Part shown: positions 3,343 through 19,825 of the stretch, one piece after another | How the letters are laid out: each line of letters starts with the position of its first letter | How positions within the stretch are numbered: the first letter of the stretch is position 1 | Source: Streptomyces sp. NBC_01446 | GTDB taxonomy: Bacteria > Actinomycetota > Actinomycetes > Streptomycetales > Streptomycetaceae | Reading direction: 5' to 3' | Assembly (NCBI RefSeq): GCF_026340095.1 | Contig: NZ_JAPEPO010000001.1 | Coordinates: 4,607,501 to 4,671,500, forward strand | DNA: 64,000 nt | Made by a program: the position numbers and the translations under genes | The notes under the pieces: generated by a model | The model's database searches: none | Seen by the model: the letters and a program-made list of their open reading frames with translations, nothing else | What the model was told of the DNA's origin: nothing

Positions 3343-5835
3343 GTGGCGGGGACCCCCGACAGGTCGAAGCAGCAGGAGTCGTCGGGAGGACCGATCCCGG
3401 AGGAACGGGACCCGAGGCTGGCGATGGCGAGGCAGTCGCCGGAGCGGGTCGATCAGGCGACGGCGGTGTTCTCCGTCCGGGACGTTCCGGCGGCGACGGA
3501 ATCGGGTTCGGGTTCGGGTTCGGCGGAGAATTCCCCGGCGGGCTCGGATTCGGATTCGGACGCGGATGCCTCCGGCGCGGAGGACTCGGGCCCGGCTACC
3601 GGTTCGGCGTCGGCATCGGATTCCGGGGCGGACTCGGAGCCCGAGGCGGGTTCCGAGGACGGTACGGAGCCGGGCGCCGGCGACGAGGCGGGCGACGCGC
3701 GCCTGCGTGCCGCTGTGGCGGCCTGGGTGTCCGGTCCGCGGGACGGCGCCGCCGACGGGCCCGAGGCGGCCGGTGACGGTGCCGCTGACGTGGCGGAGAG
3801 TGCCGCGGAGGAGTCCGAGGCGGACGAGCCGGAGGCGGCAGACACAGCGTCGGACGCGGCGGAGGACGACGGTGACGGCGATGACGCCGTGGCCGACGCC
3901 GCTGAGGACTCGGCCGACGCCGAGGCCGCGGACGCCCCCGAGGGGTCCGGCGACGACGCGGACGCCGAATCGGCTGACGCCCCCGAGGCAACCAGCGACG
4001 ACGCCGAGCCGGCCGATGCCTCTGAGGCACCGGAAGCCGAGGCGCCCGACGCCGACGCGAAGTCGGCCGACGAGGCCAAGACGCCTGCCGACGAGGCCAA
4101 GACGCCTGTCGACGTCAAGTCGTCCGACGACGCGAAGGCACCGGCTGACGCGAAGCCGGCCGACGACGCGAAGGCTGACGCGAAGCCGGCCGACGAGGCC
4201 AAGGCACCCGCCGGCGAGGCCAAGGCGCCCGCCGACGCGAAGCCCGCCGGTGGCGATGCCAAGCCCCCCGTCGACCAGGCCACCGCCGTCTTCAAGGCCG
4301 TCAAGCCGCCCGTCGACCAGCCGACCCAGATGCTCAAGTCGCTCGGGTCCAAGCCCGCCGGTGCGGGCAAGGCCGAGTCCGATGCCGAGCGCACCAGCAA
4401 GTTCGTGCCCCTCAAGGGGCTCGATTCGGGCACCCCGGCCAAGCCCAAGGCGCAGCCCGAGGCACAGTCCAAGGCGCAGCCCACCGCCCCGCCGCCCGCG
4501 AAGCCCTACGTCGGGCCCGAGCGCACCACCCAGCAGCCGCTCCCGCCGCTGCCCCCGCTCGACCTCCTGGCCGAGCTCACGAACACGCCGCCGCCCGCGG
4601 AGACCCCGGTCCGCACGGCCGTGCGCAGGGTCAAGATCTGGACGCCGATCGTCCTGCTGCTCGCCGTCGTGTTTGCGGTCGTACAGGCCGTACGACCGCT
4701 GCCCGCGCCCACGCTGGCGCTGACCGCCAAGTCGACGTTCGCGTTCGACGGGGACAAGGTCTCGCTGCCGTGGCCGGCCGAGGGTCAGGGCGCGATGGAC
4801 GTCAGCGGTATCGGCTCGATGGACGGGTTCGGCGAGCAGAAGCCCGTACCGATCGGGTCCGTGGCCAAGGCCATGACGGCGTACGTCGTGCTCAAGGACC
4901 ACCCGCTGCAGCCGGGCAAGGACGGTCCGTCCATCGACGTGGACGCGAAGGCGGAGAAGGAGGGCGGCTACGACTCCGAGGGAGAGTCGACGCTGAACAC
5001 CGTCAAGGAGGGCGACAAGCTCAGCCAGAAGGACGCCCTTTCGGCCATCATGATTCCGTCCGCGAACAACATCGCGCGGCTGCTGGCCCGTTGGGACACC
5101 GGTTCCGAGGAGGCGTTCGTCAAGAAGATGAACGCCGCCGCCAAGGACCTCGGCATGACCGGCACGACGTACACCGACCCGTCCGGGCTGAAGGAGACGA
5201 CCGTCTCCACCGCTCAGGACCAGGTCAAGCTCGGCAACGAGCTGGTGAAGATCCAGGCCCTGATGGACATCACCAAGCTGCCGACGTGGAAGGACCCGTC
5301 GGGCAAGACGTGGCAGAACTACAACCGCCTCGTCCCGTACAACAACGCGGTCGGCGTGAAGACCGGTTCGACGACCAAGGCCGGCGGCAACCTGCTCTTC
5401 GCCGCGACGAAGGACGCCGGCGGCGAGACCGTGACGGTCGTCGGCGCGATCCTCGGGCAGCACCGGGCGCCGATCATCGACACCGTGAACGCGGTCAGCA
5501 AGACGGCGATGCTCGCGGCGCAGGACGCCGTGAAGGCGTCGACGATCCTGAAGAAGGGCGACGTCGTCGGCTACGTGGACGACGGGCTCGGCGGGCAGAC
5601 CCCGGTCGTGGTGACGAAGAACGTCTCGGCGGTCGGCTGGGCGGGCCTGACGGTGAAGCTGGAGCTGGCGGACGGCGCCAAGGGCGCAGCCATCCCGCAC
5701 AGCGCGAAGGCCGGTACGCAGGTCGGCGAGCTGAAGGTCGGAGACGGTTCGGGCGGTGCGGTCACCGTCCCGGTCGCCCTCCAGAAGGACCTGGCCGAAC
5801 CCGGCTTCGGCGCGAAGCTCACCCGCGTCGGCTGA
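3343..5835 (+). CDS. D-alanyl-D-alanine carboxypeptidase (peptidase S11) with long acidic N-terminal region
   Basis: The enzyme trims the terminal D-Ala from peptidoglycan stem peptides. The C-terminal domain has all three S11 motifs: S-V-A-K (506-509, nucleophile Ser506), S-A-N (573-575) and K-T-G (673-675). One membrane segment (about 432-452) anchors it, with the enzyme domain outside. The first 430 residues, presumably cytoplasmic, are a low-complexity Ala/Asp/Glu then Ala/Asp/Lys region with repeated A-D-E-A-K and A-D-A-K-P units. They also carry three copies of a D-Q-[AP]-T-x-[VM]-[FL] motif (37-43, 311-317, 325-331). Typical S11 enzymes are 300-450 aa, so this one is about twice the usual size. 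GTG at 3343 is chosen because GGAGG lies six bases upstream; an in-frame GTG at 3319 has no such site. Confidence 0.93.
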   Translation: MAGTPDRSKQQESSGGPIPEERDPRLAMARQSPERVDQATAVFSVRDVPAATESGSGSGSAENSPAGSDSDSDADASGAEDSGPATGSASASDSGADSEPEAGSEDGTEPGAGDEAGDARLRAAVAAWVSGPRDGAADGPEAAGDGAADVAESAAEESEADEPEAADTASDAAEDDGDGDDAVADAAEDSADAEAADAPEGSGDDADAESADAPEATSDDAEPADASEAPEAEAPDADAKSADEAKTPADEAKTPVDVKSSDDAKAPADAKPADDAKADAKPADEAKAPAGEAKAPADAKPAGGDAKPPVDQATAVFKAVKPPVDQPTQMLKSLGSKPAGAGKAESDAERTSKFVPLKGLDSGTPAKPKAQPEAQSKAQPTAPPPAKPYVGPERTTQQPLPPLPPLDLLAELTNTPPPAETPVRTAVRRVKIWTPIVLLLAVVFAVVQAVRPLPAPTLALTAKSTFAFDGDKVSLPWPAEGQGAMDVSGIGSMDGFGEQKPVPIGSVAKAMTAYVVLKDHPLQPGKDGPSIDVDAKAEKEGGYDSEGESTLNTVKEGDKLSQKDALSAIMIPSANNIARLLARWDTGSEEAFVKKMNAAAKDLGMTGTTYTDPSGLKETTVSTAQDQVKLGNELVKIQALMDITKLPTWKDPSGKTWQNYNRLVPYNNAVGVKTGSTTKAGGNLLFAATKDAGGETVTVVGAILGQHRAPIIDTVNAVSKTAMLAAQDAVKASTILKKGDVVGYVDDGLGGQTPVVVTKNVSAVGWAGLTVKLELADGAKGAAIPHSAKAGTQVGELKVGDGSGGAVTVPVALQKDLAEPGFGAKLTRVG

Positions 5836-5859
5836 CTTCCCGGCCGACCTCACGCGCAA

Positions 5860-5888
5860 GCGCCCCCACGGCACAGCCGTGGGGGCGC
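5860..5888. terminator. Bidirectional terminator
   Basis: GCGCCCCCACGGC, loop ACA, GCCGTGGGGGCGC: a perfect 13-bp stem between the convergent carboxypeptidase gene and the membrane-protein gene. Confidence 0.8.
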
Positions 5889-5905
5889 CTGCGTCGGAGG
5901 ACCGC

Positions 5906-7612
5906 TCACTTCGTCTTCGGCGGCACGCACTTGGGTGCCGTCTTGCCGGACGGCCCCCCGTACTGCGAGCTGATCTGGACGTCGCCCGGCTCCTTCACCG
6001 TCAGGCGCGTGAACTCGCCCTCCTCGCGCAGGCACCCGGTGTCCGCCCACAGCCACGGCGAGTACGCGATCCGCACGATGATCGAGCCGGCCTTCGGCAT
6101 CCGTACGACGAGGTTGGCGCCGTCGGAGCGGACCACCGAGCCGGGCGAGTCCACCAGCGGCACCGCGTTCTTCACGCGGTAGATCCGCCAGTTGGTGTCC
6201 TGCCACACCGATTCGAGGTAGTCCGGCTCACTGGACACCAGCTTGTGCTCCAGCTCCGCGGGGCCGTCCGGCTCGCCGTTGTAGACGACGACGAAGCCGA
6301 CGGCCCACTCGGAGAGCCACGCGTGGTACGAGGCGGAGGAGAAGGCGCCCTCGGGCACGTCGGTGCCGCCGTGTCCCTCGTAGAAGAGCCGTCCGCGCTC
6401 GACGTCGGCCTGCCGGTTCCAGCCGCGCGCCAGGTTGATGTAGGGCGCGAGGACGGCCGCCTCGCGGTGGTCGCGGGCGGGGACGACCTCCACACGGGTG
6501 CGTTCGGCGCCGAGCTTCTTGAGCGTGGAGACGACGCCGTCGGTCTTGATCGCCCACTCGGGGACCTCGGTGTTGGCGACGACATCGGCGATGGTCTTGC
6601 CGGACAGCCAGCCGAGGGAGAGGACGATGGCGACGATGCACATCACGCGCTGCCGGTGTGGCGGGAAGAACCCGCCGAGTCTGCCGTCGTAGCGGGGCCC
6701 GCGGTCCCGGTTCATCACGGCGGCGAGGAGCAGCGCGGGCCCCACGATCTCCGTGAGCCGCTCCACGTTCGTGCCGATCGGGGTGGCGATCAGATAGGTG
6801 AGCACCACGCCGAGCGCGTACACGCCGGTGCCGAGGCGTGCCACGCGCCAGGCGCGGGGCGCGCACACCAGGACGACCGCGCACAGGACGAGGGGCGGGA
6901 AGATCCGCCCGAACGGCATGGGCTGTTCGCCCTTGAACGGGAACAGCCAGGTCGTCACGCCCACGATGAGGACCGGCGGCAGGAGCAGCGACAGGGCCTT
7001 GCCCCACTGCCGGTCCAGGAGCCACGCGGCGCCGGCCACGACGAGGAAGAGCCCGGCGACGGGGCTCGCCATCGTGGACAGCGCGGCGCACACCGCGGCG
7101 ATGACGGTGCGCCGGCCGTTCATGTGCGCGAGGACGGCGCCGAGTCCGAAGGCCACGCCCAGCATGAACGTCGAGCGCCCCGACACGACCTGGCACCACA
7201 GCGAGAACCCGACCACGAGGGCCGGCCACAGTGGTCTTCGGATGCCGGTGCGCTCGACGATCGACGCGGCGAGCCAGGTGGACGAGACACCGGACAGGAG
7301 CGTGACGGGGACGACGCCGAACAGTGCCATCAGGTAGGGCGAGATGAGGCTGTAGTTGGCGATGTGGAGGCCGCCGTACCAGAACAGGTTGTACGCGGAG
7401 CCCGGGTACATCTTGGCGAACTCGGCCCACGCCACCTGTGCCGCGAGGTCGCCGCCGCCGGTCGCGAGGAACGCCAGCCACAGGACGTGCAGCGGCAGTA
7501 TGCAGGCGGTGACGAGCAGGGCGGTACGGTGCCGGCCGTGCCAGGGCTCGGGGATGTCCGGGGACCGGCGCGCGCGTGCGGCAGGGGGTGGAGACAGTTC
7601 GGCAGAGGCCAC
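5906..7612 (-). CDS. Polytopic integral membrane protein with C-terminal extracytoplasmic domain
   Basis: 568 aa from GTG at 7612. There are about ten hydrophobic segments between residues 25 and 360, then a roughly 200-residue soluble C-terminal part ending in a Cys/Lys-rich tail. Motifs such as W-A-E-F-A-K-M-Y-P-G-S-A-Y-N in the first loop recur in streptomycete proteins often labelled MFS or hypothetical. I see no MFS signature, and the architecture (acidic first loop, many helices, soluble tail) is closer to GT-C-type membrane enzymes. That is speculative. The frame extends upstream to a TTG at 7708 without a ribosome binding site, so I prefer GTG at 7612. It follows the glnH-like gene on the same strand after 127 bases and may be read with it. 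Confidence 0.8.
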   Translation of the reverse strand: MASAELSPPPAARARRSPDIPEPWHGRHRTALLVTACILPLHVLWLAFLATGGGDLAAQVAWAEFAKMYPGSAYNLFWYGGLHIANYSLISPYLMALFGVVPVTLLSGVSSTWLAASIVERTGIRRPLWPALVVGFSLWCQVVSGRSTFMLGVAFGLGAVLAHMNGRRTVIAAVCAALSTMASPVAGLFLVVAGAAWLLDRQWGKALSLLLPPVLIVGVTTWLFPFKGEQPMPFGRIFPPLVLCAVVLVCAPRAWRVARLGTGVYALGVVLTYLIATPIGTNVERLTEIVGPALLLAAVMNRDRGPRYDGRLGGFFPPHRQRVMCIVAIVLSLGWLSGKTIADVVANTEVPEWAIKTDGVVSTLKKLGAERTRVEVVPARDHREAAVLAPYINLARGWNRQADVERGRLFYEGHGGTDVPEGAFSSASYHAWLSEWAVGFVVVYNGEPDGPAELEHKLVSSEPDYLESVWQDTNWRIYRVKNAVPLVDSPGSVVRSDGANLVVRMPKAGSIIVRIAYSPWLWADTGCLREEGEFTRLTVKEPGDVQISSQYGGPSGKTAPKCVPPKTK

Positions 7613-7739
7613 TGCGGCGTTCCGTTCCGGTCGGACGGGCAATTGTGTTCGGAAAGACGCTAGCCGTGGCCCGAGAGTTGGTTGACGCGCCCCTGATGTT
7701 TGCGGCAAATCTACGCAGTGCAGTCGGAGTCAGACGCCG

Positions 7740-9056
7740 CTAGCCGCCCGGCGACGCGCAGATGTCGTCCGGCGCGTGCACCTGTCCCGACCGGCCCGAC
7801 GGTGTTCCGGCGATCTGGCTGCGCACGGTCTCCAGCTGCCCGAGGAGCGTGTCGAGCGTCCCCGTCCGCGGGTCCTGGAAGTACGTCAGGACGGCCCGGT
7901 AGAACGCGTCGCGCAGCACAGGCGGCATGACGTCCGACGCGTCGAAGCACAGGGTGTCCGCGTCGCGGGTCAGATACGAGGCGACGGCCCGGCCGGTCGG
8001 GTCGTCCGGCCGGGGGTCGGTCGCGTCGGGGAAGAAGGGCCGCAGGTGCGCGTCCGTTGACCGTGACCAGGTCTTGCGGCCGTCCTCGCTGGTCAGGAGC
8101 GTCACGAGGTCCTGTGCCGCCGGGTTGTCCGTGAGCACGGTGGCCATGTCGCCCGACACCTCGTACGTGTCCTTGTACGCGGCCCGCCCGTGCAGGAACC
8201 GCGCGGCCGGCTCCACGCGCAGGGTGTTGTCCGCCATGGCGCCGGGGTAGAGGGAGCGGATGAAGGAGCCCTGGTGTTCGTGGGTGCAGCCCGGGAGGGA
8301 GCCGCCGAGGAGTCCGCGCTTGGGGGCGTTCGGGTGCCTGGGGTCGGGTGTGCCCTCGAACGACATGGTCAGGGAGCGTTCGACGGACTTCGGCGACCGT
8401 GGGCCGAGGATCTCGGACCAGGTCGTGAATGCGCGACGCACGGCCGGGTCGTGCTTCCAGTCGAGGCGGCCGGTGGCCCACCGCGTGTACGTGTCGGGGC
8501 CCGCCTGGTGGAGGAGGATGTCCTCGATCCAGTCGGTGCCGGGCCATCCGGAGGTGGCCTGCGCGGCCATGCCCACGCACCAGTCGGGCGCCTTGGGCCC
8601 GGTGGCGCGCTTGCTCCACACCACGCTCTTGAGGTTGACCCGCAGCGGCACCCAGTAGGTGCGGTGCCTGCCGTCGAGGGTGAGGGTGGGGGACCAGGGC
8701 GGGTAGCCGCGTTCGGCGGCCTGTGGGGACAGTGGTTCGAGTTTGCCGTCGGCCGCGTACTCGGTGAGCTCGCCGATGCTGTTGAGGATCGCGACGTCGG
8801 GCGGGGCGCCGGCCTCCAGCTGCGCGACGAGGGTCTCGCGCAGGGAGCGGGTGCCCTTGTAGACGTAGTGGTGACCGCTGCGGTGCGACAGGCGGGCGAG
8901 GGCGTCCTCGAACGCGGCGCCCTCGGGTCCGGTCCACGGCCCGAGTACGACGACGGTCCGGTGCGCGTCGCCGCCCGCGCAGCCGCCGGTGAGCGCGGCG
9001 AGGGCGAGCAGGCAGGCGGCGAGCGCGAGCCGGAGCACCCTGGTCCGGCGCCTCAT
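7740..9056 (-). CDS. glnH: GlnH-like solute-binding lipoprotein of the PknG module
   Basis: 438 aa: N-terminal positively charged signal (MRRRTRVLR), hydrophobic core and Cys in A-L-T-G-G-C, an atypical lipobox because the -3 residue is Thr. The rest has the periplasmic binding-protein pattern: VVVLGPWTGPEGAAFEDAL at the start, LEAGAPPDVAIL near residue 85, then Trp-rich hinge regions. No ABC permease or ATPase gene accompanies it. Instead it is the last gene of a coupled operon after pknG and glnX; its ATG overlaps the glnX stop by 4 bases. In mycobacteria GlnH binds aspartate/glutamate/asparagine and signals through GlnX to PknG. I infer the same role here from gene order and architecture; ligand specificity is not readable. 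Confidence 0.85.
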   Translation of the reverse strand: MRRRTRVLRLALAACLLALAALTGGCAGGDAHRTVVVLGPWTGPEGAAFEDALARLSHRSGHHYVYKGTRSLRETLVAQLEAGAPPDVAILNSIGELTEYAADGKLEPLSPQAAERGYPPWSPTLTLDGRHRTYWVPLRVNLKSVVWSKRATGPKAPDWCVGMAAQATSGWPGTDWIEDILLHQAGPDTYTRWATGRLDWKHDPAVRRAFTTWSEILGPRSPKSVERSLTMSFEGTPDPRHPNAPKRGLLGGSLPGCTHEHQGSFIRSLYPGAMADNTLRVEPAARFLHGRAAYKDTYEVSGDMATVLTDNPAAQDLVTLLTSEDGRKTWSRSTDAHLRPFFPDATDPRPDDPTGRAVASYLTRDADTLCFDASDVMPPVLRDAFYRAVLTYFQDPRTGTLDTLLGQLETVRSQIAGTPSGRSGQVHAPDDICASPGG

Positions 9057-10291
9057 ACGGCGGTCCCCGGGCGCCCCACGAGCAGATACTCGCGCCGGTA
9101 GGCGTGGAGGGTGACGCCGGTGACGGCGGCGACGAGCAGTCCGGCGGGCGTCACCCAGGGGGCCACCCCGTCGACGGCGGCGAGCCGGCCGTTGTCCAGG
9201 ACGTCGTCCATCGAGTCGGCGAGCGTGACGACGGCGGTGTCACCGGGCGGGTCGATGCGGCGCTCCTCGACGGCGACCTCGGTGTCCGGCGAGGTCACCG
9301 CGTACAGGCTGCGGGCGATCGGCACGGTGTCCTCCTGGGCGGTGTACGCGTACAGCCCGTCGAGGGCGATCGCGGGCGCGGCGAGCAGCGGCAGCGCGGC
9401 GGCGAGGAGCGGCACGCTGGCCGAGATGCGGAAGCGGACCCGCAGGAAACGCAGGGTGCGCCACAGGCCGGCGATCAGCAGCACGAACGCGAGGGCCGAC
9501 ACGGCGGCGGCGGTGACGGCGGCGGGACCGAGCGCGGCGCGCGCCTCCAGACGGTCGCGCAGGGCGCGTTCGAGGTCCGAGATGCGGTCGACGACGGTCG
9601 TCCCGTCGCTGCCGGTGACGGGTGCGCAGCGGGGGTAGGTGGCGTAGCGGTCGGTGGCGGGTTCGTAGGTGTCGCCGGGATCGGGTGAGCAGAGCATGCT
9701 CTGGGCGTAGGAGAGTCCGGCCTTGCGCAGGGACTCGTCGGAGACGTTCGTCTGGGCCCAGGCGATCCAGCGCTCGTAGCCGTCGACGAGGCCGGAGACG
9801 ACGTCGAGTTCCTGGCGCTCGGCGGCGGTCAGGGCGCCGCTGCGCGCGACCTGGCTGAGGTCCTGGGCCGCGCCGGTGATCCGGGAGCCGTAACGGGGGG
9901 TGAGCCCGCTCAGCTCGACGGCGTCCCCGGCGTCGAGGCTCACCTCGGCCTCCCGCTGGGCGATGCGCAGCGAGATCCGCGCGTCGGCCAGGTCGCGCAG
10001 CGCGGGCGCGATGTGGCTGCGGATCTCGGCGGAGTCGTCGCGCAGGGACGCGGCGGTGAAGCCGAGTCCGGCGAAGGCGACGGCGGCGAGGAGGGGGAGG
10101 GCGACGAGCCGGTCGTGGAGGTAGGCGCGGTTGCGGGGCGGGTCCGCGGCCCGTGGGCCCGGCCGGCCCGTGGCCCGCACCGGCGGGGCCCACGCGTACC
10201 GCCACAGCATGCGCGCGCCCTTGAGCGCGGCGCGGGCGAAACGCTTCGCCGACGCCGCTGCCCGCCGGGACCGCCCCCGCGTGGACGTCAC
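9053..10291 (-). CDS. glnX: GlnX-like membrane sensor linking binding protein to PknG
   Basis: 412 aa. A basic cytoplasmic N-terminus (about 60 aa) is followed by a membrane segment (about 62-82), then a long extracytoplasmic helical domain (about 83-260, with DLADARISLRIAQREAEVSL resembling four-helix-bundle sensors). Three more hydrophobic segments follow, and a short basic tail. The start is GTG at 10291, whose TGA-overlapping GTGA links it to pknG; a longer frame upstream lies inside pknG and is a shadow. This topology and position match mycobacterial GlnX, a membrane protein that relays GlnH ligand binding to PknG. Function is by analogy. Confidence 0.82.
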   Translation of the reverse strand: MTSTRGRSRRAAASAKRFARAALKGARMLWRYAWAPPVRATGRPGPRAADPPRNRAYLHDRLVALPLLAAVAFAGLGFTAASLRDDSAEIRSHIAPALRDLADARISLRIAQREAEVSLDAGDAVELSGLTPRYGSRITGAAQDLSQVARSGALTAAERQELDVVSGLVDGYERWIAWAQTNVSDESLRKAGLSYAQSMLCSPDPGDTYEPATDRYATYPRCAPVTGSDGTTVVDRISDLERALRDRLEARAALGPAAVTAAAVSALAFVLLIAGLWRTLRFLRVRFRISASVPLLAAALPLLAAPAIALDGLYAYTAQEDTVPIARSLYAVTSPDTEVAVEERRIDPPGDTAVVTLADSMDDVLDNGRLAAVDGVAPWVTPAGLLVAAVTGVTLHAYRREYLLVGRPGTAV

Positions 10292-12570
10292 CGGTCCGCC
10301 GCCGGTCGCCGTCCGGTGGGCCAGGGCCGCAGGAAGGGCGGCCGGGACCGGTCTCGGCGGTGCCACAGCCCGAGGGGCCTGACCAAGTAGGCGCGGTCCA
10401 GAAGGCGTTCGGCGACGGCCTCGGCGTGCGGGCTGTCGGAGCGGGCGGCCTGCCGGGCGAGCGCCCGGTAGAACTGCGAGAGCTGACGCCTCAACGTGAT
10501 GTCCTCGTCCGGGAATTCGAGCCGTCCGCCCGCGTCCCGCGCGTCCTGGTCGCGCCGGGCCGCCGCCGCCGAGAGCCGCCCGAGCGCCTCCGCCCCCACC
10601 GTCCCGTCCGCCACGAGGCGCTGCGCGGCCTCCCACACCTCGGCCTTCATCCGTACGCGGGCCTGTTCGTCGGTGAGCCCGTGCTCGTTGAAGAGGCGGG
10701 CGAGCCTGGTGAGCGCGGTGCGCAGCCCGTCGGCCGTCGTCGCGTACTCGACGGCGACGCGTACCGTCGCGGTGCGCGCGCCGGTGCGGTGGCGCGAGTG
10801 CTGCGGCACCGCGTCGAGCGCCTCGATGGCGTACGCGTCGGGGGTGGCGCCCCCGAGCGCGAGGCGGGCCCGTGCCGCGCCGAACGCCGCGCTGCCGAGC
10901 GAGGGGTTGCGCAGCCGTACGGCCTCGTAGAAGGTCAGCGCCTCGTGCCAGTGGCCGAGCCGCTCGGCGCAGTGGCCGAGGGCGAGCTTGGGCGCGTACT
11001 CGCCGGGGATGGCGCCGTAGACCTGGTCGAAGTAGTCGCGCGCGGACGCCACGTCGCCGGCGGCGAGGTCGAGGAGGCCGCGGTGCCAGTCGATGCGCCA
11101 GTCGTGCCGGGACAGGTCGCGCCCGATGCCGTCGACGGCGCCGCGCAACTCCTCGGCGGCGGACGCCAGGTCCGGCCCTTCACCCTCCGCGCGTTCGGCC
11201 CGTACGGCGACGCGCAGCCGGAGCCTGCACCGCAGGAGCCGCACCTCGGGGGAGTCCCGCCAGTCACCGGTGTGCTGGAGGAGCGCGGCGGGGTCGGCGT
11301 CGGCGAGGCGGCTGAGGCCGTCGTGGTGGGCGTCGTGCGGGTCGGGGCGCGGCACGGGCAGACGGGCCGCGACATCGGCGGCGGACGGCGGCTCGTGCAG
11401 CGGGGCGGGCGGGACGCCCCCGGCGGGAGTCGCCCACCGGGGCAGGACCGGCGCGACCCCGAGCGCTCCGTCCAGGGCGTACGGCGACTGCATGAACAGC
11501 GGCGACGGCTCGAACGTCTCCTGCCCGGTCCGCAGTGACCTCAACTCCCGGAAGCCACCGCGCAGTTGGTCCGCCATCTCGCCCGCGTCCGCGTACCGCT
11601 CGGCCGGTTCGGGGCGGGTGGCGCGGCGCAGGGCGCGGGCCAGCGAGACGAGGCCGAGGCCTTCCGGGGCCGGGGTCGTGGTCAGCGCGGCGGCCTGCGC
11701 CGTCACCGGGTCGCCGTCGTGCATCCGGTCCAGGGCGCCGAGTTCGGCCAGCGAGTGGGGTCCGATGCCGAGTCCGCTCAGCGTGCGCAGCGTCTCGCCC
11801 AGGCTGAACAGGTCATCGCGCGGGGTGGACGCGCCGGACAGGGCGGGCGGGGCGAGCGGCACGTTCGGCGCGCGGAAGCCCTCGGTCGTCAGGCCGGGCG
11901 CGCCTTCCTCGCGGATGGACCCCACGTCGATGACCTTGGTGGTGGCGCCGTCGTGCATCACGTTCTGCGGCTTCAGGTCGCCGTACACCTTGCGGGGGCC
12001 GGGCCGCGCGTGCAGATGGTCGAGTGCGGACAGGACGCGCAGCCCGTACGCGAGCACGAACTCGTGGAAGCGGGCGCCGCCGAACCGGTCCGGGTCGTGC
12101 AGGGCCAGTGCGCGGATCTCGTCGAGGTTGAGCCCGTCGACGTACGGCAGGACGAGGAAGGGGCCGACACGGGCGTGGCGGCCGTAGTTGAAGACGGGGA
12201 TGATCCCCTCGTGGTGGAGGTCGGCGAACGCCTGCCGCTCGTCCTCCAACGAGCCCAGCCGCGGGGCGAGTTGTTCCGGCCGCAGGGTCTTCACGGCGAC
12301 CTCGCGGTCGTCGACCTTCCGGTCGAGCGCGAGATACACGTCGCCCATGCCGCCGCGCCCGAGACGCCGTACGACCTCATACTGCCCGGCCAGTAACTCG
12401 CCCTGTTCCAGGGCGGCTTCAACGGGAGCCTCAGCCCGGCCCCGGTCGTCGCGCGGCCTGACCTCGGGCAGCGCCGTCGGATCGGGCCCCTCGTCGGGCA
12501 GCGTGACCCAGGCGTCCCGCGGCCCGTCCGGAGGCGGCATGACGAACAGCGGACCGGAGGACGCCGTCAT
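10288..12570 (-). CDS. pknG: Serine/threonine protein kinase, PknG family, with TPR domain
   Basis: 760 aa from ATG at 12570 (AGGGGCGG upstream). The kinase domain begins near residue 62: glycine loop G-R-G-G-M-G-D-V (71-78), Lys94 in V-A-V-K, Glu111. The catalytic loop is Y-G-D-L-K-P-Q-N (196-203) and the metal site is D-V-G (215-217) instead of D-F-G. Tyr in place of the usual HRD histidine and the altered DFG are PknG hallmarks. Residues about 430-760 are helical TPR-like repeats. Mycobacterial PknG has an N-terminal rubredoxin-like C-x-x-C domain; the 60-residue N-terminus here has no cysteine pair, so redox gating looks absent. It is a soluble kinase with no membrane segment, first gene of pknG-glnX-glnH. 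Leu59 is encoded by TTA (12396-12394), so translation should depend on bldA tRNA-Leu(UUA). Confidence 0.93.
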   Translation of the reverse strand: MTASSGPLFVMPPPDGPRDAWVTLPDEGPDPTALPEVRPRDDRGRAEAPVEAALEQGELLAGQYEVVRRLGRGGMGDVYLALDRKVDDREVAVKTLRPEQLAPRLGSLEDERQAFADLHHEGIIPVFNYGRHARVGPFLVLPYVDGLNLDEIRALALHDPDRFGGARFHEFVLAYGLRVLSALDHLHARPGPRKVYGDLKPQNVMHDGATTKVIDVGSIREEGAPGLTTEGFRAPNVPLAPPALSGASTPRDDLFSLGETLRTLSGLGIGPHSLAELGALDRMHDGDPVTAQAAALTTTPAPEGLGLVSLARALRRATRPEPAERYADAGEMADQLRGGFRELRSLRTGQETFEPSPLFMQSPYALDGALGVAPVLPRWATPAGGVPPAPLHEPPSAADVAARLPVPRPDPHDAHHDGLSRLADADPAALLQHTGDWRDSPEVRLLRCRLRLRVAVRAERAEGEGPDLASAAEELRGAVDGIGRDLSRHDWRIDWHRGLLDLAAGDVASARDYFDQVYGAIPGEYAPKLALGHCAERLGHWHEALTFYEAVRLRNPSLGSAAFGAARARLALGGATPDAYAIEALDAVPQHSRHRTGARTATVRVAVEYATTADGLRTALTRLARLFNEHGLTDEQARVRMKAEVWEAAQRLVADGTVGAEALGRLSAAAARRDQDARDAGGRLEFPDEDITLRRQLSQFYRALARQAARSDSPHAEAVAERLLDRAYLVRPLGLWHRRDRSRPPFLRPWPTGRRPAADR

Positions 12571-12697
12571 CGGCCGCCCCTGAATTCTCCGGTTGCTCCC
12601 GCGTCCCCCTGCATGCTGCCTCAGGATAGGGGCGCGGCGTCCCGATGGCGCCCGTGTGTATGCCTCCGACCTGATCGTGGAATGGAGGCCCCGGCCA
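12571..12697. promoter_or_regulatory. Shared intergenic region of pknG and flavohaemoprotein genes
   Basis: 127 bases between two divergent starts must hold both promoters. I see no clear -35/-10 pair or strong dyad on either strand. Both flanking genes contain a TTA codon. GGAGG at 12684-12688 serves the flavohaemoprotein GTG at 12698. Confidence 0.55.
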
Positions 12698-13945
12698 GTG
12701 ACGACGAGAACCGGCGCTAGACCGTACGCCGCCCTCAACCCTGCCCTGATCCGCTCCAGCCTCGCCGTCGCGGAACGCCGCGCGGAGGCGCTGACCAAGT
12801 ACTTCTATGCCCATCTGTTCAAACACAACCCCGGTGTCCGGGCCATGTTCCCGGAGCGCATGGAGGAGCAGCGCGACCGCCTCTTCGCCGCGCTGACCAC
12901 GGCGATCCTGAACCTGGAGGACACCGACGCCCTCGTCGACCACCTGCGCACGCTCGGCTTCGACCACCGCAAGTTCGGGGCCGGCACCGAGCACTACCCG
13001 GCCGTCGGACGCAGCCTGATAGCGACCCTGAAGTTCTTCTCGGGCAGCGCCTGGACGCCCAAGACGGAGGCCGCCTGGCGCGCGGCGTACGAACTCATCT
13101 CCAAGATCATGATCGCCGGAGCGGAGTCCGTGCCGGAGTCGGAACCGGCCTGGTGGAACGCGGAGGTGCTCCGCCACGAGCGCCGTGCCGAGGACATCGC
13201 CGTCCTCACCGTGCGCCCGGACCAGCCGTACCTCTTCGTGCCGGGCCAGTACGCGACGCTGACGGCCCCCGAGGTGCCGCAGGTCTGGCGCCCGTACTCG
13301 ATCGCGAACGCCCCGCGAGCCGACGGCACCCTCGACTTCCACATACGCCGCGTCGAGGGCGGCCTCCTGAGCACCGCCCTGGTCGACGAGGTCGCCCCGG
13401 GAGGCACCGTCCGCCTCGGCCCGGCACTGGGCACGACGACGCTCCCGAAAGCCCCGGAGGGGGAGCTGCTCTTCGTCGCCGGGGGGACGGGCTGGGCGCA
13501 GATCAAGGCGCTGATCGAGGAGTTCGCCGTCCGCCGCGGCTCCGCGACCGCCACGCTGCTCATCGGCGCCCGCACGGAAGACGACGTGTACGACCTCGGC
13601 GTCCTGGAGCTCCTCGGCGGCGCGCACCCGTGGCTGCGCCTGGTCGGCGCCCTGCCCGCGCGCGACCGGTCCGACGCGGACGCGACGCTCCTGCGGGAAC
13701 TGACGCGTTACGCCACCGCGCAGAGCCTGCGCCACGCGCCCGCCGAGTGGCCGCACGTGTACGTCAGCGGTCCCCCGGCCATGGTCGACACGGTGGAGAC
13801 CCAACTGGCCATGCTGCACCGCTTACCGCCCGACCGCGTCCACCACGACCCGTTGGCCCACCACGACACGGGCGAGCGCCCGGAGACGGCGGCGGAGTGG
13901 TTCCTGATGAAGCGCCAGGTTCCTTGGATCCGGCCCCGCCCGTGA
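12698..13945 (+). CDS. hmp: Flavohaemoprotein (globin plus FAD/NAD reductase)
   Basis: 415 aa. Globin domain about 1-135: Tyr37 aligns with the B10 tyrosine and His90 with the proximal haem ligand of Hmp. The FAD domain has R-P-Y-S-I-A-N and the NAD(P) domain G-G-T-G-W-A-Q-I near 260-270, followed by P-H-V-Y-V-S-G-P-P-A-M-V. Such enzymes oxidise nitric oxide to nitrate and protect from nitrosative stress. The start is GTG at 12698 with GGAGG nine bases upstream; longer starts lack a site. Leu376 is a TTA codon (13823-13825), so full-length translation should need bldA. The last 35 residues after the NAD domain are Arg/Pro-rich and longer than in Hmp. Confidence 0.93.
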   Translation: MTTRTGARPYAALNPALIRSSLAVAERRAEALTKYFYAHLFKHNPGVRAMFPERMEEQRDRLFAALTTAILNLEDTDALVDHLRTLGFDHRKFGAGTEHYPAVGRSLIATLKFFSGSAWTPKTEAAWRAAYELISKIMIAGAESVPESEPAWWNAEVLRHERRAEDIAVLTVRPDQPYLFVPGQYATLTAPEVPQVWRPYSIANAPRADGTLDFHIRRVEGGLLSTALVDEVAPGGTVRLGPALGTTTLPKAPEGELLFVAGGTGWAQIKALIEEFAVRRGSATATLLIGARTEDDVYDLGVLELLGGAHPWLRLVGALPARDRSDADATLLRELTRYATAQSLRHAPAEWPHVYVSGPPAMVDTVETQLAMLHRLPPDRVHHDPLAHHDTGERPETAAEWFLMKRQVPWIRPRP

Positions 13946-13987
13946 CGGCCCCGGCGGTGACGGTGCCGGCGTGACCGGACCGGGCCG

Positions 13988-15163
13988 TCAGAGGCAGTGG
14001 ACGGGGATGCGCTGGACGAGGTTGTTGGCGAAGCCGCCGCGGTTCCACGGCTGGGTGAGCGGCTGGGTGCGGCCGGTGGCGTCGGTGGCGCGGGCGCCGA
14101 GGACGTGGGTGCCGGGCGCGGCGGTCCACGGGGCGTGCCAGTGGCGCCAGGCCGCCGCGTGCCCGTCCGACGGGCCTCCGTCCGACGGGTCGTCGTCCGC
14201 CGGGTCCAGCGCGGCCTCGCTCCACGTGGCGCCGTCGTCCGTGGTCACGTCGACCCTGGTCACGGGTCCGTGCCCGGACCAGGCCCGGCCTTCGAGGAGT
14301 ACCGGCCCGGGGCGGACGACGCGGGCGCGCGACATGAAGTCGGGGAACCCGGGCGGGATCATCAGGGCGCGCGGCAGGATCCGGGTGACGGGCTCGCCGG
14401 GATCGTCGGCGTCCCAGCGGAAGCGGTACGCGACGGCCTGCTGGAACCCGTCGAAGGGGGCGTCGACGAGGGTGATCCCGCGCAGCCACTTCACATGCGC
14501 CATGCCGTACCAGCCGGGGACGACGAGCCGCAGCGGGTAGCCGTGCTGCGGGGGCAGGGGAGCGCCGTTCATCGCGTACGCGACGAGGACGTCACCCGCG
14601 GCCACCGCGAGGGGCAGGCTGCGCCGGTAGTCCTGCTCCACGCCGCGCTCGACCCCGTGGTCGGCGCCGGTGAAGACGGCCTCGACGGCGCCGTCGTCCA
14701 CCCCGGCCTCGTCGAGGAGCACGCGCAGCGGCACACCGGTCCAGTCCGCGGTGCCGACCGCCTCGACCAGCCAGGGCTGGCTGACGGGCCGGGGCGTGAG
14801 CAGGGCGCGCCCGTTGCCCGCGCACTCCAGCGTGACGCGGTGGGTGACGGCGGGCAGGGACCTCAGGGCCGCCAGGCCGAGGGTCAGTGGCGTCCTGACC
14901 AGGCCGTCGACCGTGAGCCGCCAGTCGTCGGCGCTCGCGTCCGGGATGTCGTAGTGGACGAGGACGTAGTGCAGGCCGGGCGGGGTGACGTCGTAACGGA
15001 GGGCTTCGAGGGGGAGGCCGTGATTACGCGTGGCGAGCGCGAGTTCATCGGGCGTGATGCCTTCGCCGGGGGCGGCGAGCCGGCCGGGACGACTGACGCC
15101 GCCGAGACCGTCAGGTCCGTCAGGTCCGTCAGGTCCGTTCATGACGTGGTCCGCTCCGTCCAT
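13988..15163 (-). CDS. Sulfite-oxidase-family molybdopterin oxidoreductase
   Basis: 391 aa. Cys114 in T-L-E-C-A-G-N-G-R is the molybdenum ligand of the family. Further fold markers are Y-A-M-N-G-A-P-L-P-P-Q-H-G-Y-P-L-R near 205-225, G-W-Y-G-M-A-H-V-K-W-L and a C-terminal Ig-like dimerisation domain (about 270-391) with W-x-x-A. No Tat signal or haem domain, so it is probably cytoplasmic; the true substrate is unknown. The N-terminus has three Gly-Pro-Asp repeats encoded by a 9-bp tandem repeat. Cofactor genes moaC, mogA and glp/moeA lie 38 kb away in this window. ATG 15163 is used; ATG 15142 is an alternative. Confidence 0.9.
   Translation of the reverse strand: MDGADHVMNGPDGPDGPDGLGGVSRPGRLAAPGEGITPDELALATRNHGLPLEALRYDVTPPGLHYVLVHYDIPDASADDWRLTVDGLVRTPLTLGLAALRSLPAVTHRVTLECAGNGRALLTPRPVSQPWLVEAVGTADWTGVPLRVLLDEAGVDDGAVEAVFTGADHGVERGVEQDYRRSLPLAVAAGDVLVAYAMNGAPLPPQHGYPLRLVVPGWYGMAHVKWLRGITLVDAPFDGFQQAVAYRFRWDADDPGEPVTRILPRALMIPPGFPDFMSRARVVRPGPVLLEGRAWSGHGPVTRVDVTTDDGATWSEAALDPADDDPSDGGPSDGHAAAWRHWHAPWTAAPGTHVLGARATDATGRTQPLTQPWNRGGFANNLVQRIPVHCL
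15110..15136 (+). repeat. 9-bp tandem repeat (3 copies)
   Basis: Three exact copies of GTCAGGTCC within the 5' end of the molybdoenzyme gene encode its (Gly-Pro-Asp)n stretch. Copy number could vary by slippage without a frameshift. Confidence 0.85.
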
Positions 15164-15369
15164 GTCTTCATGGTGCTCCGCGATTGCGGGGCCTGCCGGG
15201 CGGGCGGATCCTTGAAGTGTCAGCCGGCGCTCGATGAGGTCTGTCGGTGGCTGACGGGGGTGCCCGCACGCCGGCGTACGAACCGCTCACCGACGCCCGC
15301 CGGGAGGCGGGAAGACGGGACGGGGGGACAGCGGTCCGGCCAGCGATGCGTCCCGTCGAGGAGAGCGCC

Positions 15370-16839
15370 ATGAACGAGACCGACACCGGTACCAGTACCG
15401 AGACCGGCACCCCTGCCACGGACCCGACCGCCACGGACCCGACCGCCACGGACGTCGTCGGCCTGATGCGAACCGAGCTGCGTGGCCCGGTCATTGCGCA
15501 GGGCGACCCGGAGTACGACGAGGCGCGCAAGATCTACAACGGGATGATCGACCGGAAGCCGACCGCGATGGTGCGCTGCTCGGACGCGGCGGACGTCATG
15601 ACGGCGGTCGACTTCATCCGCGACCATGGACTGGAACTCGCCGTCCGCGGCGGTGGCCACAGCGGCGGCGGCCTGTGCCTCGTCGACGACGCGATCACGA
15701 TCGACCTGTCACCGATGCGCTGGGTGCGCGTGGACCCCGCGCAGAAGACGGCGTGGGTGGGTGGCGGCAGCCAACTCCGCGACCTGGACCACGCGGCGCA
15801 CGCGTTCGGCCTGGCGATTCCCGCCGGAATCATGTCGACGACCGGCATCGGCGGCCTGACCCTCGGTGGCGGCCACGGCCACCTGACGCGCAAGTACGGC
15901 CTGACGATCGACAGCCTGCTCAGCGTGGACATGGTCCTCGCGGACGGCAGCTTCGTCACGGCGAGCGAGACCGAACACTCCGACCTGTTCTGGGCGTTGA
16001 GGGGCGGCGGCGGAAACTTCGGCATCGTCACCGCGTTCAAGTTCCAGCTGCATCCGGTGCACACGGTGGGCGTCGCGCTGACGCTGTGGCCGGTCGAGAA
16101 GACGCGTGAAGTCCTGGAGTGGTACCGGGAGTTCCTGCCGCAGGCACCCGAGGACCTGAGCGGCTTCTTCGCCGCGCTGACCGTGCCGCCGGGACCGCCC
16201 TTCCCCGAGGAGATCCACGGCAAGAAGATGTGCGGGGTGGTGTGGTGCTGGACCGGAGACCTGGCCCGCACGGACGAGGCGATCGCGGCGGTGGCGGAGG
16301 TGGAGGCGGGCCCGCCCGCCTTCCGGTTCACGGCACCGATGCCGTACCCGGCGCTGCAGAGCATGTTCGACGAGCTGCTCCGCAAGGGCCTGCAGTGGTA
16401 CTGGCGCGGTGACTTCTTCGACCGCATCACGGACGAGGCGATCGACGTACACGTCAAGTTCGCCGAGAACCTCCCCACCGCGCTGTCGACGATGCACCTC
16501 TACCCGGTGAACGCGGCCGCGGCCCGGGTCTCCGAGGACGCGACGGCCTGGGGCTACCGGGAAGCGGTCTGGTCGGGCGTCATCGCGGGCATCGACCCGG
16601 ACCCGGCGAACGCGGACGCGGTCAAGCAGTGGGCGAGGGCGTACTGGCACGACCTGCACCCGTACTCGATGGGCGGCGCCTACGTGAACTTCATCGGCGA
16701 GGACGAGCACCAGGACCGCGTCCAGGCGACGTACCGCCACAACTACGACCGCCTGGCGGAGGTCAAGCGCAAGTACGACCCGAACAACCTGTTCCACGCC
16801 AACCAGAACATCGAGCCGGCGGCAGGGAAGGCCGCGTAG
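15370..16839 (+). CDS. FAD-binding oxidoreductase, berberine-bridge type
   Basis: 489 aa from ATG at 15370 (GAGGAG seven bases upstream). The PCMH FAD domain has VRGGGHSGGG, whose His is the usual covalent 8-alpha-histidyl site, then TTGIGGLTLGGGHGHLTRKYG and RGGGGNFGIVTAFKF. The C-terminal BBE segment is Y-D-P-N-N-L-F-H-A-N-Q-N-I. No Cys is placed convincingly for bicovalent attachment. A secretion signal is absent. The N-terminus carries a duplicated DPTAT encoded by an 18-bp repeat. Substrates in the family include sugars, alkaloids and polyketides; nothing here fixes which. It is convergent with the SARP gene. Confidence 0.9.
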   Translation: MNETDTGTSTETGTPATDPTATDPTATDVVGLMRTELRGPVIAQGDPEYDEARKIYNGMIDRKPTAMVRCSDAADVMTAVDFIRDHGLELAVRGGGHSGGGLCLVDDAITIDLSPMRWVRVDPAQKTAWVGGGSQLRDLDHAAHAFGLAIPAGIMSTTGIGGLTLGGGHGHLTRKYGLTIDSLLSVDMVLADGSFVTASETEHSDLFWALRGGGGNFGIVTAFKFQLHPVHTVGVALTLWPVEKTREVLEWYREFLPQAPEDLSGFFAALTVPPGPPFPEEIHGKKMCGVVWCWTGDLARTDEAIAAVAEVEAGPPAFRFTAPMPYPALQSMFDELLRKGLQWYWRGDFFDRITDEAIDVHVKFAENLPTALSTMHLYPVNAAAARVSEDATAWGYREAVWSGVIAGIDPDPANADAVKQWARAYWHDLHPYSMGGAYVNFIGEDEHQDRVQATYRHNYDRLAEVKRKYDPNNLFHANQNIEPAAGKAA

Positions 16840-16858
16840 AAACGTGGGTTCGCGGGCT

Positions 16859-16879
16859 CGGTGACCACCCGGGTCACCG
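16859..16879. terminator. Stem-loop between convergent genes
   Basis: CGGTGACC, loop ACCCG, GGTCACCG: an 8-bp perfect stem overlapping the end of the SARP gene and 20 bases after the flavoenzyme stop. Confidence 0.55.
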
Positions 16880-19825
16880 TCGGCCGGGGCCGTGAGTGTG
16901 TTGCGCACGGCCACCGGGCAGGTCGAGTACGGCCTGGAACTCCCGGCTCGCCTCCCGCAGGCGGCCCGCCGTCGCGTAGGCGCTCCCGAGCCGGTTGCGG
17001 ATGTCCATCTCCAGCCAGTCGTAGTTGGGTTCGGTGAGCGGGGACATCAGCCGGCGCTGGAGGAGAAGGGCCTGGTGGTGCAGGGCGATGGCCGACTCCG
17101 GGTTTCCCTCGGCCTCCTCGGCCGTGCCGAGCCGGGTCAGGCTGCGGGCGCAGAGGAAGGCGTCCCCGGTGTGCAGCACCTGGTCGATCGCCCGGCGCAG
17201 CAGCCGCTTGGCTTCACCGTAGTGGCCGAAGTGGAGGTGGGCGTCGGCGGCGCAGCTCAGGGCCCTGCCGAGCATGTGTGGCCTGGCGGCCTTCTCGGCG
17301 TGAGTGCAGGCATCGTCGAAGCAGGCCAGCGCCTCCGCGTCCCGTCCCTCCAGCTGGTGCGCGAGACCCAGGAAGAGGAGCACGATCCAGGTGAGCCAGT
17401 CGTTGCGCAGCCGTCGTGACAGGTCGACCGCCGCCAGGAGAGGGGGCATTGCCGCGTCGCCGTCGCCGCGACGCAGATGGACCGTACCGAGACCGGCGAG
17501 GGCCCGCGCCTCCTCGCCCGGTTGGGAGAGCCGCCGGCCGAGGTCCAGGGCTTCGGTCGCGTAGGTGAGGACGACTTCGTAATTGCGCTGGTGTCCGGCG
17601 GTGTACATCACGCAGTTCCGCAGCGAGGCGGCCATCCGACGGTCGGTGGCCTCGCCCTCGTGCGCGAGCGCGATCTCCAGAGCCGTCTGGGACTCGTGAT
17701 AGCGGCCCCGGCGCATGAAGTAGTCGCACAGCGCCTCGGCGATCCAGCACGCGTAGTCGGCCTCACCGAGGGCCGCGGCGTATCCGACGACGTCGACGAG
17801 TTCTCCGGCTGCCCCGTCCAGCCAGGCCTCGGCCTCCTGCCAGTGCGCGAAGCGCGACGCGGTGAGCCGGGGTCCGGTGGCGAACCCGGCAGGCCCCCAG
17901 TCGCTCGCGGTCCGGGCCGCGTCCAGGAAGAGGCCGAGTGCGGCCCGGCGCGCGGCTCCGGCCTCGTCGGGGAGGGCGTCCGCGAGGCGCCGGGCGTGCA
18001 CGCGGACCAGGTCGTGCAGCCGGTAGCGGCCCGGTCGCGGCTGCTGCACCAGGCTCGTGTCGACCAGGCTCTCCAGGATCCGCTCGGTGTCGACAGCAGG
18101 CCGGTCGAGCAGCGTCGCCGACGCCAGTACGTCGAACTCGACCGTCGGAGCGAGGCCGAGCGCGCGGAACCCGCGCTGCTGCTCGGCGGCGAGCTGGTCG
18201 TACGACAGGCGGAAGGCCGCCTCCACGCTGCGGTCACCGACGCTCAGCTCGCCGAGCCGGTGGTCGTCGCCCGCCATGCGGCCCACCAGGTACTCCACCG
18301 TCCACGTGTCCCGGTTCTGCAGCCGCGATCCGGCGATGCGCAGGGCGAGCGGCAGCCCGTCGCACAGCCCGGCGAGGCGCTGCGCCGCCTGAGGCTCCCG
18401 GGCCGCGCGCTCCTCCCCGATGAGGTGCGTGAGCAGGGACACCGAGGCGTCGCTCGCCAGGGGCTCCAGGGTGACGCGCCGGTCGGCGTCGAGTCCGGCG
18501 AGGCGCCGCCGGCCCGCCACCAGCACGCGGCTTCCGGCCCCGGCGGGCAGCAGTGGCCGTATCTGGTCGGCGTCCAGGGCGTCGTCGAGGACGAGGAGCA
18601 GCCGCAGTGGGCTGGTCGCCGCGCGCCAGACGGCGGTGAGTTCGTCGAGGTCGCCGGGCAGCTCACCGGTGGCCGCGCCGAGGGAACGCAGCAGCCGCTG
18701 GAGCGCCTGCTCCGGCGACTGGCGCCGGCGCGTGCTGTGCGCGCGCAGGTCCACGTACAGGCAGCCGTCCGGGTACCGGTCGCTGAGCTCGCGGGCCGCG
18801 CGGACGACGAGTGCGGTCTTGCCGACGCCCGCCGTACCGTCCACCGTCACGACCGACACGGATCCGGGCGCGGAGGGTGCGGTCAGCTGCGCCAGCTCGG
18901 CGTCCCGCCCGACCAGGCGGCCGGCGTCGCCGGGCAGTTCGTTGACGGCGCGGCGGGGGCGGATCCCCGGCGGCCCGGCCGCGGCGGAGTTTCCGGGTCT
19001 TCCGGAGTCGCCCGGGTATCCGGAGCGGCGGGCGGCCGCCCCGAGGAGGCGCTCGTCGTCCCGGCGCAGCACCGCCTCCTGCACGCGCCGGAGTTCCTCA
19101 CCGGGTTCGACCCCGAGTTCGTGGCGCAGGAGCGCGCACATGTCCCGGTAGACGCCGAGCGCGTCCACCGGCCGTTCGCTGCCGTACAGGGCGCGCATGC
19201 GCAGGGCCGCGAGCGACTCGTCGTACGGGCCGGACCCGGACAGGGTGGCGAGACCGTCGAGGGCCTCGGCGAACCTGCCGAGCAGGACGAGGCACTCGAG
19301 GCGTTCCACCCGCACGGTGCGCAGCCGCTCCAGGAGTCGCTGCCGCTCCACGTCGGCGAACGGTCCGGGCAGCCCGGCCAGCGGTTCGCCGTCGAACAGG
19401 GCGAGCGCGGCCGAGAGCCGTTCCACGGCGGTGTCCGGATCGCCGGAGACCTTCGCGCGCCGGGCGGCGTCGGCGTGTTCGGCGAGGTCCGTGGCGTCGA
19501 GCTGGACCTCGCCCACGAGGAGGCGGTAACCGCCCGGCTCCCCGCGGATCAGGGACTGTGCGGGGCCGGCGGTCTCGGCGTCGAGGGCCTGGCGTAGCGC
19601 GTAGACGTAGCTGGGCAGTACCTTGCGGCCGGAGTTCGGGGGACGGGCGCCCCAGATGCCGTCGAGCAACTGCTCGTGGCTGACGAGGAATCCGGGCCGC
19701 AGGGCCAGCGCCGCAAGGACGGCCTGGCGCCGGACATGGCCGAGCGGCAGCGGCGTACCGCCGCGCCAGGCACGCACCGGTCCGAGCACGGCGAGCCGGA
19801 CCGCCCGACGAGAGCCGTCGCCCAC
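16874..19825 (-). CDS. Large SARP/AfsR-type transcriptional regulator (wHTH-BTAD-NB-ARC-TPR)
   Basis: 983 aa from GTG at 19825, preceded by GGAGG at six bases; a GTG at 19843 or 19849 would add six to eight residues. The OmpR-like winged helix (about 10-90: LAVLGPVRAW, then Q-L-L-D-G-I-W-G) is followed by the BTAD domain (about 100-245), ending in R-H-E-L-G-V-E-P-G-E-E-L-R. An NB-ARC domain follows with Walker A G-T-A-G-V-G-K-T, Walker B L-L-L-V-L-D-D and G-L-P-L-A-L. TPR repeats fill about 650-983. AfsR-like regulators activate secondary metabolism, but no biosynthetic cluster sits beside this one, so the targets may be distant. The small gene at 20018 is divergent from it. Confidence 0.93.
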   Translation of the reverse strand: MGDGSRRAVRLAVLGPVRAWRGGTPLPLGHVRRQAVLAALALRPGFLVSHEQLLDGIWGARPPNSGRKVLPSYVYALRQALDAETAGPAQSLIRGEPGGYRLLVGEVQLDATDLAEHADAARRAKVSGDPDTAVERLSAALALFDGEPLAGLPGPFADVERQRLLERLRTVRVERLECLVLLGRFAEALDGLATLSGSGPYDESLAALRMRALYGSERPVDALGVYRDMCALLRHELGVEPGEELRRVQEAVLRRDDERLLGAAARRSGYPGDSGRPGNSAAAGPPGIRPRRAVNELPGDAGRLVGRDAELAQLTAPSAPGSVSVVTVDGTAGVGKTALVVRAARELSDRYPDGCLYVDLRAHSTRRRQSPEQALQRLLRSLGAATGELPGDLDELTAVWRAATSPLRLLLVLDDALDADQIRPLLPAGAGSRVLVAGRRRLAGLDADRRVTLEPLASDASVSLLTHLIGEERAAREPQAAQRLAGLCDGLPLALRIAGSRLQNRDTWTVEYLVGRMAGDDHRLGELSVGDRSVEAAFRLSYDQLAAEQQRGFRALGLAPTVEFDVLASATLLDRPAVDTERILESLVDTSLVQQPRPGRYRLHDLVRVHARRLADALPDEAGAARRAALGLFLDAARTASDWGPAGFATGPRLTASRFAHWQEAEAWLDGAAGELVDVVGYAAALGEADYACWIAEALCDYFMRRGRYHESQTALEIALAHEGEATDRRMAASLRNCVMYTAGHQRNYEVVLTYATEALDLGRRLSQPGEEARALAGLGTVHLRRGDGDAAMPPLLAAVDLSRRLRNDWLTWIVLLFLGLAHQLEGRDAEALACFDDACTHAEKAARPHMLGRALSCAADAHLHFGHYGEAKRLLRRAIDQVLHTGDAFLCARSLTRLGTAEEAEGNPESAIALHHQALLLQRRLMSPLTEPNYDWLEMDIRNRLGSAYATAGRLREASREFQAVLDLPGGRAQHTHGPGRR

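Follow-up and report, generated by a model that had tools for sequence, protein, structure and literature searches.

The window analyzed here, a stretch of 64,000 nucleotides from Streptomyces sp. NBC_01446 (contig NZ_JAPEPO010000001.1, positions 4,607,501 to 4,671,500), holds a three-gene operon coding for a PknG-like kinase, a GlnX-like membrane protein and a solute-binding lipoprotein. We consider it probable that this locus represents a paralogous offshoot of the PknG-GlnX-GlnH system, with a sugar-type receptor in place of the amino-acid one, and that its three products form a receptor-transmitter-kinase chain; signalling of the PknG kind appears here to have been switched to another nutrient. 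The genes are, in the order in which they are read:

10288..12570, minus strand: PknG-like Ser/Thr kinase, 760 amino acids, with a short N-terminal segment, a Hanks kinase domain and a PknG-type TPR domain; rubredoxin absent

9053..10291, minus strand: GlnX-like membrane protein, 412 amino acids; GTG start, overlapping the kinase stop by 4 bases

7740..9056, minus strand: family-1 (sugar-type) solute-binding lipoprotein, 438 amino acids; ATG start, with a 4-base overlap with the membrane-protein stop

As a preliminary description of this DNA had stated, the frame listing and the sequence give three open minus-strand frames, the kinase and membrane-protein genes being joined by a GTGA overlap and the membrane-protein and binding-protein genes by an ATGA overlap.

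The receptor belongs to the sugar-type SBP_bac_1 family

The binding protein matches SBP_bac_1 (35.7 bits; cut-off 26), as do all 24 aligned receptors (the window's and 23 relatives), none of which matches SBP_bac_3 at an E-value of 0.01. The GlnH of the same genome is an SBP_bac_3 protein (98.8 bits), and the receptor family profile has no match to it. The preliminary description had taken the binding protein for GlnH and had itself made that identification depend on profile searches; these place it outside the GlnH family, so the proposed amino-acid sensing loses its basis. A structural model of the receptor (pLDDT [predicted local distance difference test] 87) has AcbH as its best VIA match (3oo6_A; Z 35.5, root mean square deviation 2.5 over 353 residues), and its further structural neighbours are other sugar receptors, including a glucose/galactose-binding protein. 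The receptor thus shares its fold with AcbH (PDB 3oo6), whose ligand we take to be galactose, and with other family-1 sugar-binding proteins; unlike the AcbH-type proteins, which serve ABC (ATP-binding cassette) importers and of which AcbH is 14% identical to it, the window receptor is accompanied by a kinase and a GlnX-like protein. The receptor has invariant tryptophans, among them W41, W171 and W176. A survey, cited like the other papers below for selected passages, predicted almost all SBP_bac_1 members to be sugar binders (PMC9602780). The input to the window chain is likely a carbohydrate.

The window receptor carries a lipobox (LTGGC). Judged by eye, 8 of the 24 receptors instead have an N-terminal hydrophobic anchor lacking the lipobox cysteine (L043, L045, L046 and L049-L053), which fits tethering, and the window clade has the lipoprotein form; an automatic motif scan counted 18 receptors with a cysteine match, some of them too early for a lipobox.

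Kin of the receptor outside the genus bear on a different account, by which the binding protein serves an ABC sugar permease whose genes lie elsewhere, and the kinase operon, rather than being driven by the receptor, controls this uptake. In a draw of 396 genomes from the phylum, with 4 candidates scored per genome, at least 11 genomes matched the receptor profile at an E-value of 1e-65, five of them of the same genus and six of them small genomes. The six solute-binding proteins outside the genus score 225-240 bits, and the stretches around them, several of which end at contig ends, contain no PknG-like kinase. Permease-like frames were read by eye around three of the six (one, in L132, being confirmed by Pfam), and nearby genes code for the trehalose synthase TreT (L132, L136), GH57 (L132) and GH65 (L135) enzymes and a LacI-type regulator (L136); these neighbours weakly hint at an alpha-glucoside-type importer as the origin of the receptor. 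ATPases are shared between sugar permeases in Streptomyces, a piece of general background that, together with these apparent ABC sugar-uptake loci among the nearest kin, favours a distant permease. We nevertheless regard this account as unlikely: as the preliminary description had noted, inspection by eye showed no ABC permease or ATPase in the operon or elsewhere in the frame listing for 4000-17000, the receptor travels with the kinase and the membrane protein in 24 of the 25 loci with the highest receptor scores (see below), and the eight anchored relatives look fixed by their N-terminal helix.

A PknG-type kinase without rubredoxin

The window kinase matches PF16918 (PknG_TPR) at 134.6 bits (cut-off 27) and PF00069 (Pkinase) at 55.9 bits (cut-off 31.7), and the PknG-type chains 7mxb and 2pzi are its best solved relatives. 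The motifs Y-G-D-L-K-P-Q-N and D-V-G reported earlier are present in its sequence, and the residues that we take to be catalytic, K94, E111, D198, N203 and D215, are the same in all 23 aligned kinases. Rubredoxin (PF16919) has no match in the window kinase and CxxC is likewise absent N-terminal to the kinase domain, which together with the two domain matches upholds the earlier reading of a rubredoxin-less PknG-type kinase; a rubredoxin search of the genome gave one match, in its canonical PknG (with 150 of 242 candidates scored). The protein therefore shows the TPR domain beside the Hanks domain that marks the PknG family and lacks both the rubredoxin and orthology to PknG. It is 32% identical to the canonical PknG of the same genome over 741 columns, and its closest named relative is the kinase of Streptomyces sp. 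CB01635 (94% identity over the tree columns). By sequence comparison it is a paralogue, not an orthologue, of PknG, because a canonical PknG is encoded elsewhere in the genome and the window kinase falls in a separate clade of the kinase tree. The PknG of Corynebacterium is also without rubredoxin, so this part is not obligatory for PknG (PMC8546545).

The kinase tree comprises 47 rows (L032 and L034 were excluded for their truncated kinases, and L131 was not included). In it, the 32 kinases of loci with a family-1 receptor form one clade, split from 15 canonical-type kinases with a support of 99 in the Shimodaira-Hasegawa-like approximate likelihood-ratio test; a GlnH match lies near 12 of these 15 (the others being L110, L112 and L117). 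Seven rows, including L038, make up the window clade (support 100), and in the window locus and the five closest to it in the tree, trypsin-like, vWA and rubredoxin parts are all absent; L038, inside the same clade, has both vWA and trypsin-like genes. Pfam found rubredoxin in 11 of the 23 aligned kinases. Its CxxC motifs are missing from 11 rows of the tree, namely the window clade and a set of trypsin-kinase fusions, whose joint branch has a support of 89 (unstarred); their sister, L044 (support 100 for the 12), carries a degraded rubredoxin. Because the 11 rubredoxin-less rows group together with a degraded form as their sister, a single loss with L044 as the likely intermediate would be the simplest reading.

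A remote homologue of GlnX as the putative transmitter

At an E-value of 0.1 or better, the NCBIfam model of GlnX (NF058618) matches 20 of 24 aligned members of the membrane-protein family (best 1.7e-21), and a profile-profile comparison of this family with 20 GlnX-family rows gave a probability of 97.1 and an E-value of 5.5e-11 over 203 columns. On this evidence the window membrane protein is a remote GlnX homologue that lies outside the family by the curated threshold. Its predicted structure is all-helical (pLDDT 86). The four membrane helices of the preliminary description are partly seen: three hydrophobic stretches exceed the hydropathy cut of 1.6, while the fourth (370-388) is weaker at 1.48, and the model places a helix (377-405) there. 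A tblastn search of a plasmid collection with the membrane protein gave no match.

GlnX-model matches also number 2 to 6 each in 14 genomes (G092-G105) of another family of the order, which suggests that GlnX has multiplied there as a general transmitter.

A canonical PknG cluster in the same genome

On the same contig, about 0.67 Mb from the window locus, we recovered a canonical PknG-GlnX-GlnH cluster (L006, G000:C3:5282000-5295000) that codes for GlnX (522.7 bits), GlnH, a helical protein lacking a Pfam match, a rubredoxin-bearing PknG, a PP2C phosphatase with a zinc ribbon and a vWA protein. We had considered the window locus as the genome's PknG-GlnX-GlnH operon, and this finding rules it out. 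The preliminary description, which had announced a complete operon of this kind in the same order as the mycobacterial module, fails here on three counts: the canonical operon lies elsewhere, the receptor is not GlnH, and the order differs, being kinase, membrane protein and binding protein in the window as against glnX-glnH-pknG in C. glutamicum (PMC9769921) and in the canonical locus of this genome, where the helical gene precedes pknG. What holds of it is that an orphan receptor, a PknG-type kinase and a GlnX-like protein share one operon and most likely act as a signalling chain.

That the locus is a duplicate of the canonical system, still sensing Asp/Glu/Asn and controlling GarA, seems to us quite unlikely. 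The homologous kinase and membrane protein, the orphan receptor and the overlapping genes would suit such a duplicate, and the genome does encode one GarA/OdhI-like FHA protein with an ETTS motif (L097; likeness judged by eye), which is unlinked to the window operon; yet the receptor is an SBP_bac_1 and not an SBP_bac_3 protein, with no profile match to GlnH, and the canonical operon is present separately with a different gene order.

Two further features of this genome touch the canonical families. Directly after the canonical cluster lies a frame for an FHA protein (L102). A third GlnX-family protein, encoded at L007 5589-7352 (minus strand), scores 241.7 bits, just under the cut-off, and lies beside what by eye is a KdpB-like ATPase gene; the 13 kb around it gave no match to a PknG-like kinase or a receptor.

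Distribution and fuller forms of the module

We ran the receptor profile over 150 genomes, 91 of them of the same genus, scoring 11 candidates per genome, so that the counts of receptors are lower bounds. At least 119 of the 150 genomes matched at an E-value of 1e-20, and the scores fall into groups: at least 25 genomes above 420 bits, all of the genus, and at least eight at 281-298 bits (six in the genus, one in the order and one in the class). The other listed matches score 191 bits or less and resemble ordinary SBP_bac_1 proteins, barring a partial one of 244 bits (G033:C29:42006-42743), which lies in an open frame of 1355 codons and could be a fused receptor. A receptor of this type is thus present in at least 31 of the 91 genus genomes, and in 30 of these its locus also contains a PknG-like kinase; PknG_TPR has one or more matches in 87 of the 91 (150 relatives searched).

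Using home-made hidden Markov models (HMMs), we mapped the window, 23 other loci above 420 bits and all eight of the lower group. Kinase, membrane protein and receptor occur together in 24 of the 25 loci above 420 bits, the remaining receptor (G050, L057) standing alone and occupying one end of a 4.8 kb contig. The PknG-like kinase adjoins the receptor in those same 24 of 25 and in 7 of the 8 lower-scoring loci, the eighth (L065) having a receptor and no kinase within 12 kb. This co-occurrence of kinase, membrane protein and receptor is more than chance.

The fuller form of the module codes for a trypsin-like protein, the kinase, a vWA protein, the GlnX-like protein and the receptor. The vWA gene lies between the kinase and membrane-protein genes in 16 of 24 loci and is missing from the other eight (the window, L035-L037 and L039-L042). 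Trypsin-like gene, kinase, vWA gene and receptor follow one another in this order in 7 of the 8 lower-scoring loci, and L131 is an eighth locus with this order; the home-made GlnX-like HMM has a match in five of the seven and none in L058 and L061. L039-L042 encode long fusion proteins of a trypsin-like domain and the PknG-like kinase (Pfam-confirmed in L039 only). The iterated trypsin-like HMM also picked up kinase and helical parts and is thus unspecific, so the trypsin-like assignment rests on PF13365 in the three of three proteins scanned (L048, L053, L039) and elsewhere on gene position. Searches of the window's own genome for a second vWA partner found only the canonical vWA protein, and one for a trypsin-like partner, run with no positive control, gave no match.

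These extra parts could point to a damage- or invader-response system of which the window form is a decaying remnant, a proposal that we consider very unlikely. Trypsin-like and vWA proteins are indeed among the components of conflict systems proposed for multicellular bacteria (PMC7159879), and the module is patchy in the genus, with parts missing in some branches. On the other side, vWA and PP2C genes are found in this genome's canonical PknG locus as well, the three window genes are open with the kinase and receptor apparently constrained in the closest relatives, and PknG goes unnamed in the main text of PMC7159879.

Proposed signalling chain and the points against it

We infer the ligand class, the direction of signalling, the docking and the substrate of the proposed receptor-transmitter-kinase chain as follows. 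The lipoprotein, on the outside of the membrane, would close on a carbohydrate ligand and, once closed, would dock on the GlnX-like protein at its extracytoplasmic helical region; the resulting movement would be relayed across the membrane to the kinase in the cytoplasm, at its TPR domain, and the kinase would then phosphorylate a substrate, for which the FHA protein GarA/OdhI is a possible candidate.

Several results weigh against this chain. At the receptor, the structural matches are only 9-16% identical and the fold alone does not fix the ligand, and among 33 high-scoring receptor matches three (G069, G047, G143) were flagged with one internal TGA. At the transmitter, the GlnX identity given in the preliminary description stands as remote homology and falls short as family membership, for NF058618 reaches the window protein at an E-value of 0.0011 and 18.2 bits, far under the curated cut-off of 250; further, the profile-profile match spans residues 79-321 and omits the last outer segment and helix, and Foldseek with the model found no solved relative at an E-value of 0.001, only long-helix noise. 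The membrane protein is also the least constrained of the three: by the simple Nei-Gojobori method, applied here to high-G+C genomes, the ratio of nonsynonymous to synonymous substitution rates among the window, L031 and L033 is 0.24-0.28 for the kinase, 0.33-0.49 for the receptor and 0.60-0.74 for the membrane protein. In itself this coding constraint counts in favour of the chain. L034 carries a vWA gene and a membrane protein 55% identical to the window's, the vWA-less loci having 53-55%; because L034 retains vWA, either the vWA loss was not one clean step or the reading is too simple. Finally, no substrate gene was seen within the operon.

A wider proposal, which we advance tentatively and with more doubt than confidence, is that Streptomyces run two parallel PknG-type nutrient receptors, the canonical one reading Asp/Glu and the new one an external carbohydrate. 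Both kinases would act on GarA, or on an FHA protein related to it, and the supply of carbon and of nitrogen would thereby be weighed at the 2-oxoglutarate node; in the five-gene form the trypsin-like and vWA proteins would be added as cytoplasmic regulators. The carbohydrate would perhaps be an alpha-glucoside such as trehalose or maltose, because of the TreT, GH57 and GH65 genes near some of the closest kin outside the genus.

Relation to described systems

Like the PknG-GlnX-GlnH-GarA/OdhI systems of Mycobacterium and Corynebacterium, the window locus combines a PknG-type kinase with TPR, a transmitter of probably four helices and an orphan extracytoplasmic binding protein in operon linkage, and its kinase is without rubredoxin as in Corynebacterium. 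Unlike them, it has an SBP_bac_1 and not an SBP_bac_3 receptor, a transmitter under the GlnX threshold and the order kinase-transmitter-receptor rather than glnX-glnH-pknG, and it is a paralogue beside a retained canonical system. Beyond PknG it resembles SGR_4432, SCO1468 and MSMEG_1200, in which a Ser/Thr kinase is linked or fused to a solute-binding protein (PMC6069109). The same paper reports that GlnH and GlnX are needed for PknG activation, that a rubredoxin-less PknG still complements, and that all PknG-linked binding proteins are predicted amino-acid binders; another states that within Actinobacteria rubredoxin is lacking only in the Corynebacterium PknG (PMC8546545). Window-type loci conflict with both of these last generalisations, though both papers, in the passages cited, speak of PknG orthologues, and those passages do not mention the paralogous family. 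Among the titles and passages that searches of open-licence PMC brought up, none describes linkage between a family-1 receptor and a PknG-type kinase.

Such loci suggest that the receptor arm of PknG is exchangeable, and that rubredoxin has also been lost in a branch of Streptomyces, with a likely intermediate. If a sugar-type receptor does drive the kinase, Streptomyces would separate the effects of receptor, rubredoxin and vWA on one kinase type and would offer a route to learning by what path central metabolism receives carbon signals in bacteria that make antibiotics.

Flanking genes

The operon is bounded in the window by two genes:

5906-7708, minus strand: 600-amino-acid membrane protein frame, downstream, with its listed start 31 bases from the operon

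12593-13945, divergent: flavohaemoprotein-like gene, upstream of the kinase

An NCBIfam search with the 600-amino-acid membrane protein gave no match at 1e-5. Homologues of a dacA-like gene and of the gene for this membrane protein flank the module in 7 of 36 loci compared (L031-L034, L043, L045 and L053), which include vWA-bearing and vWA-less forms; in some of the seven, the relatives of the membrane protein gene lie on the opposite strand.

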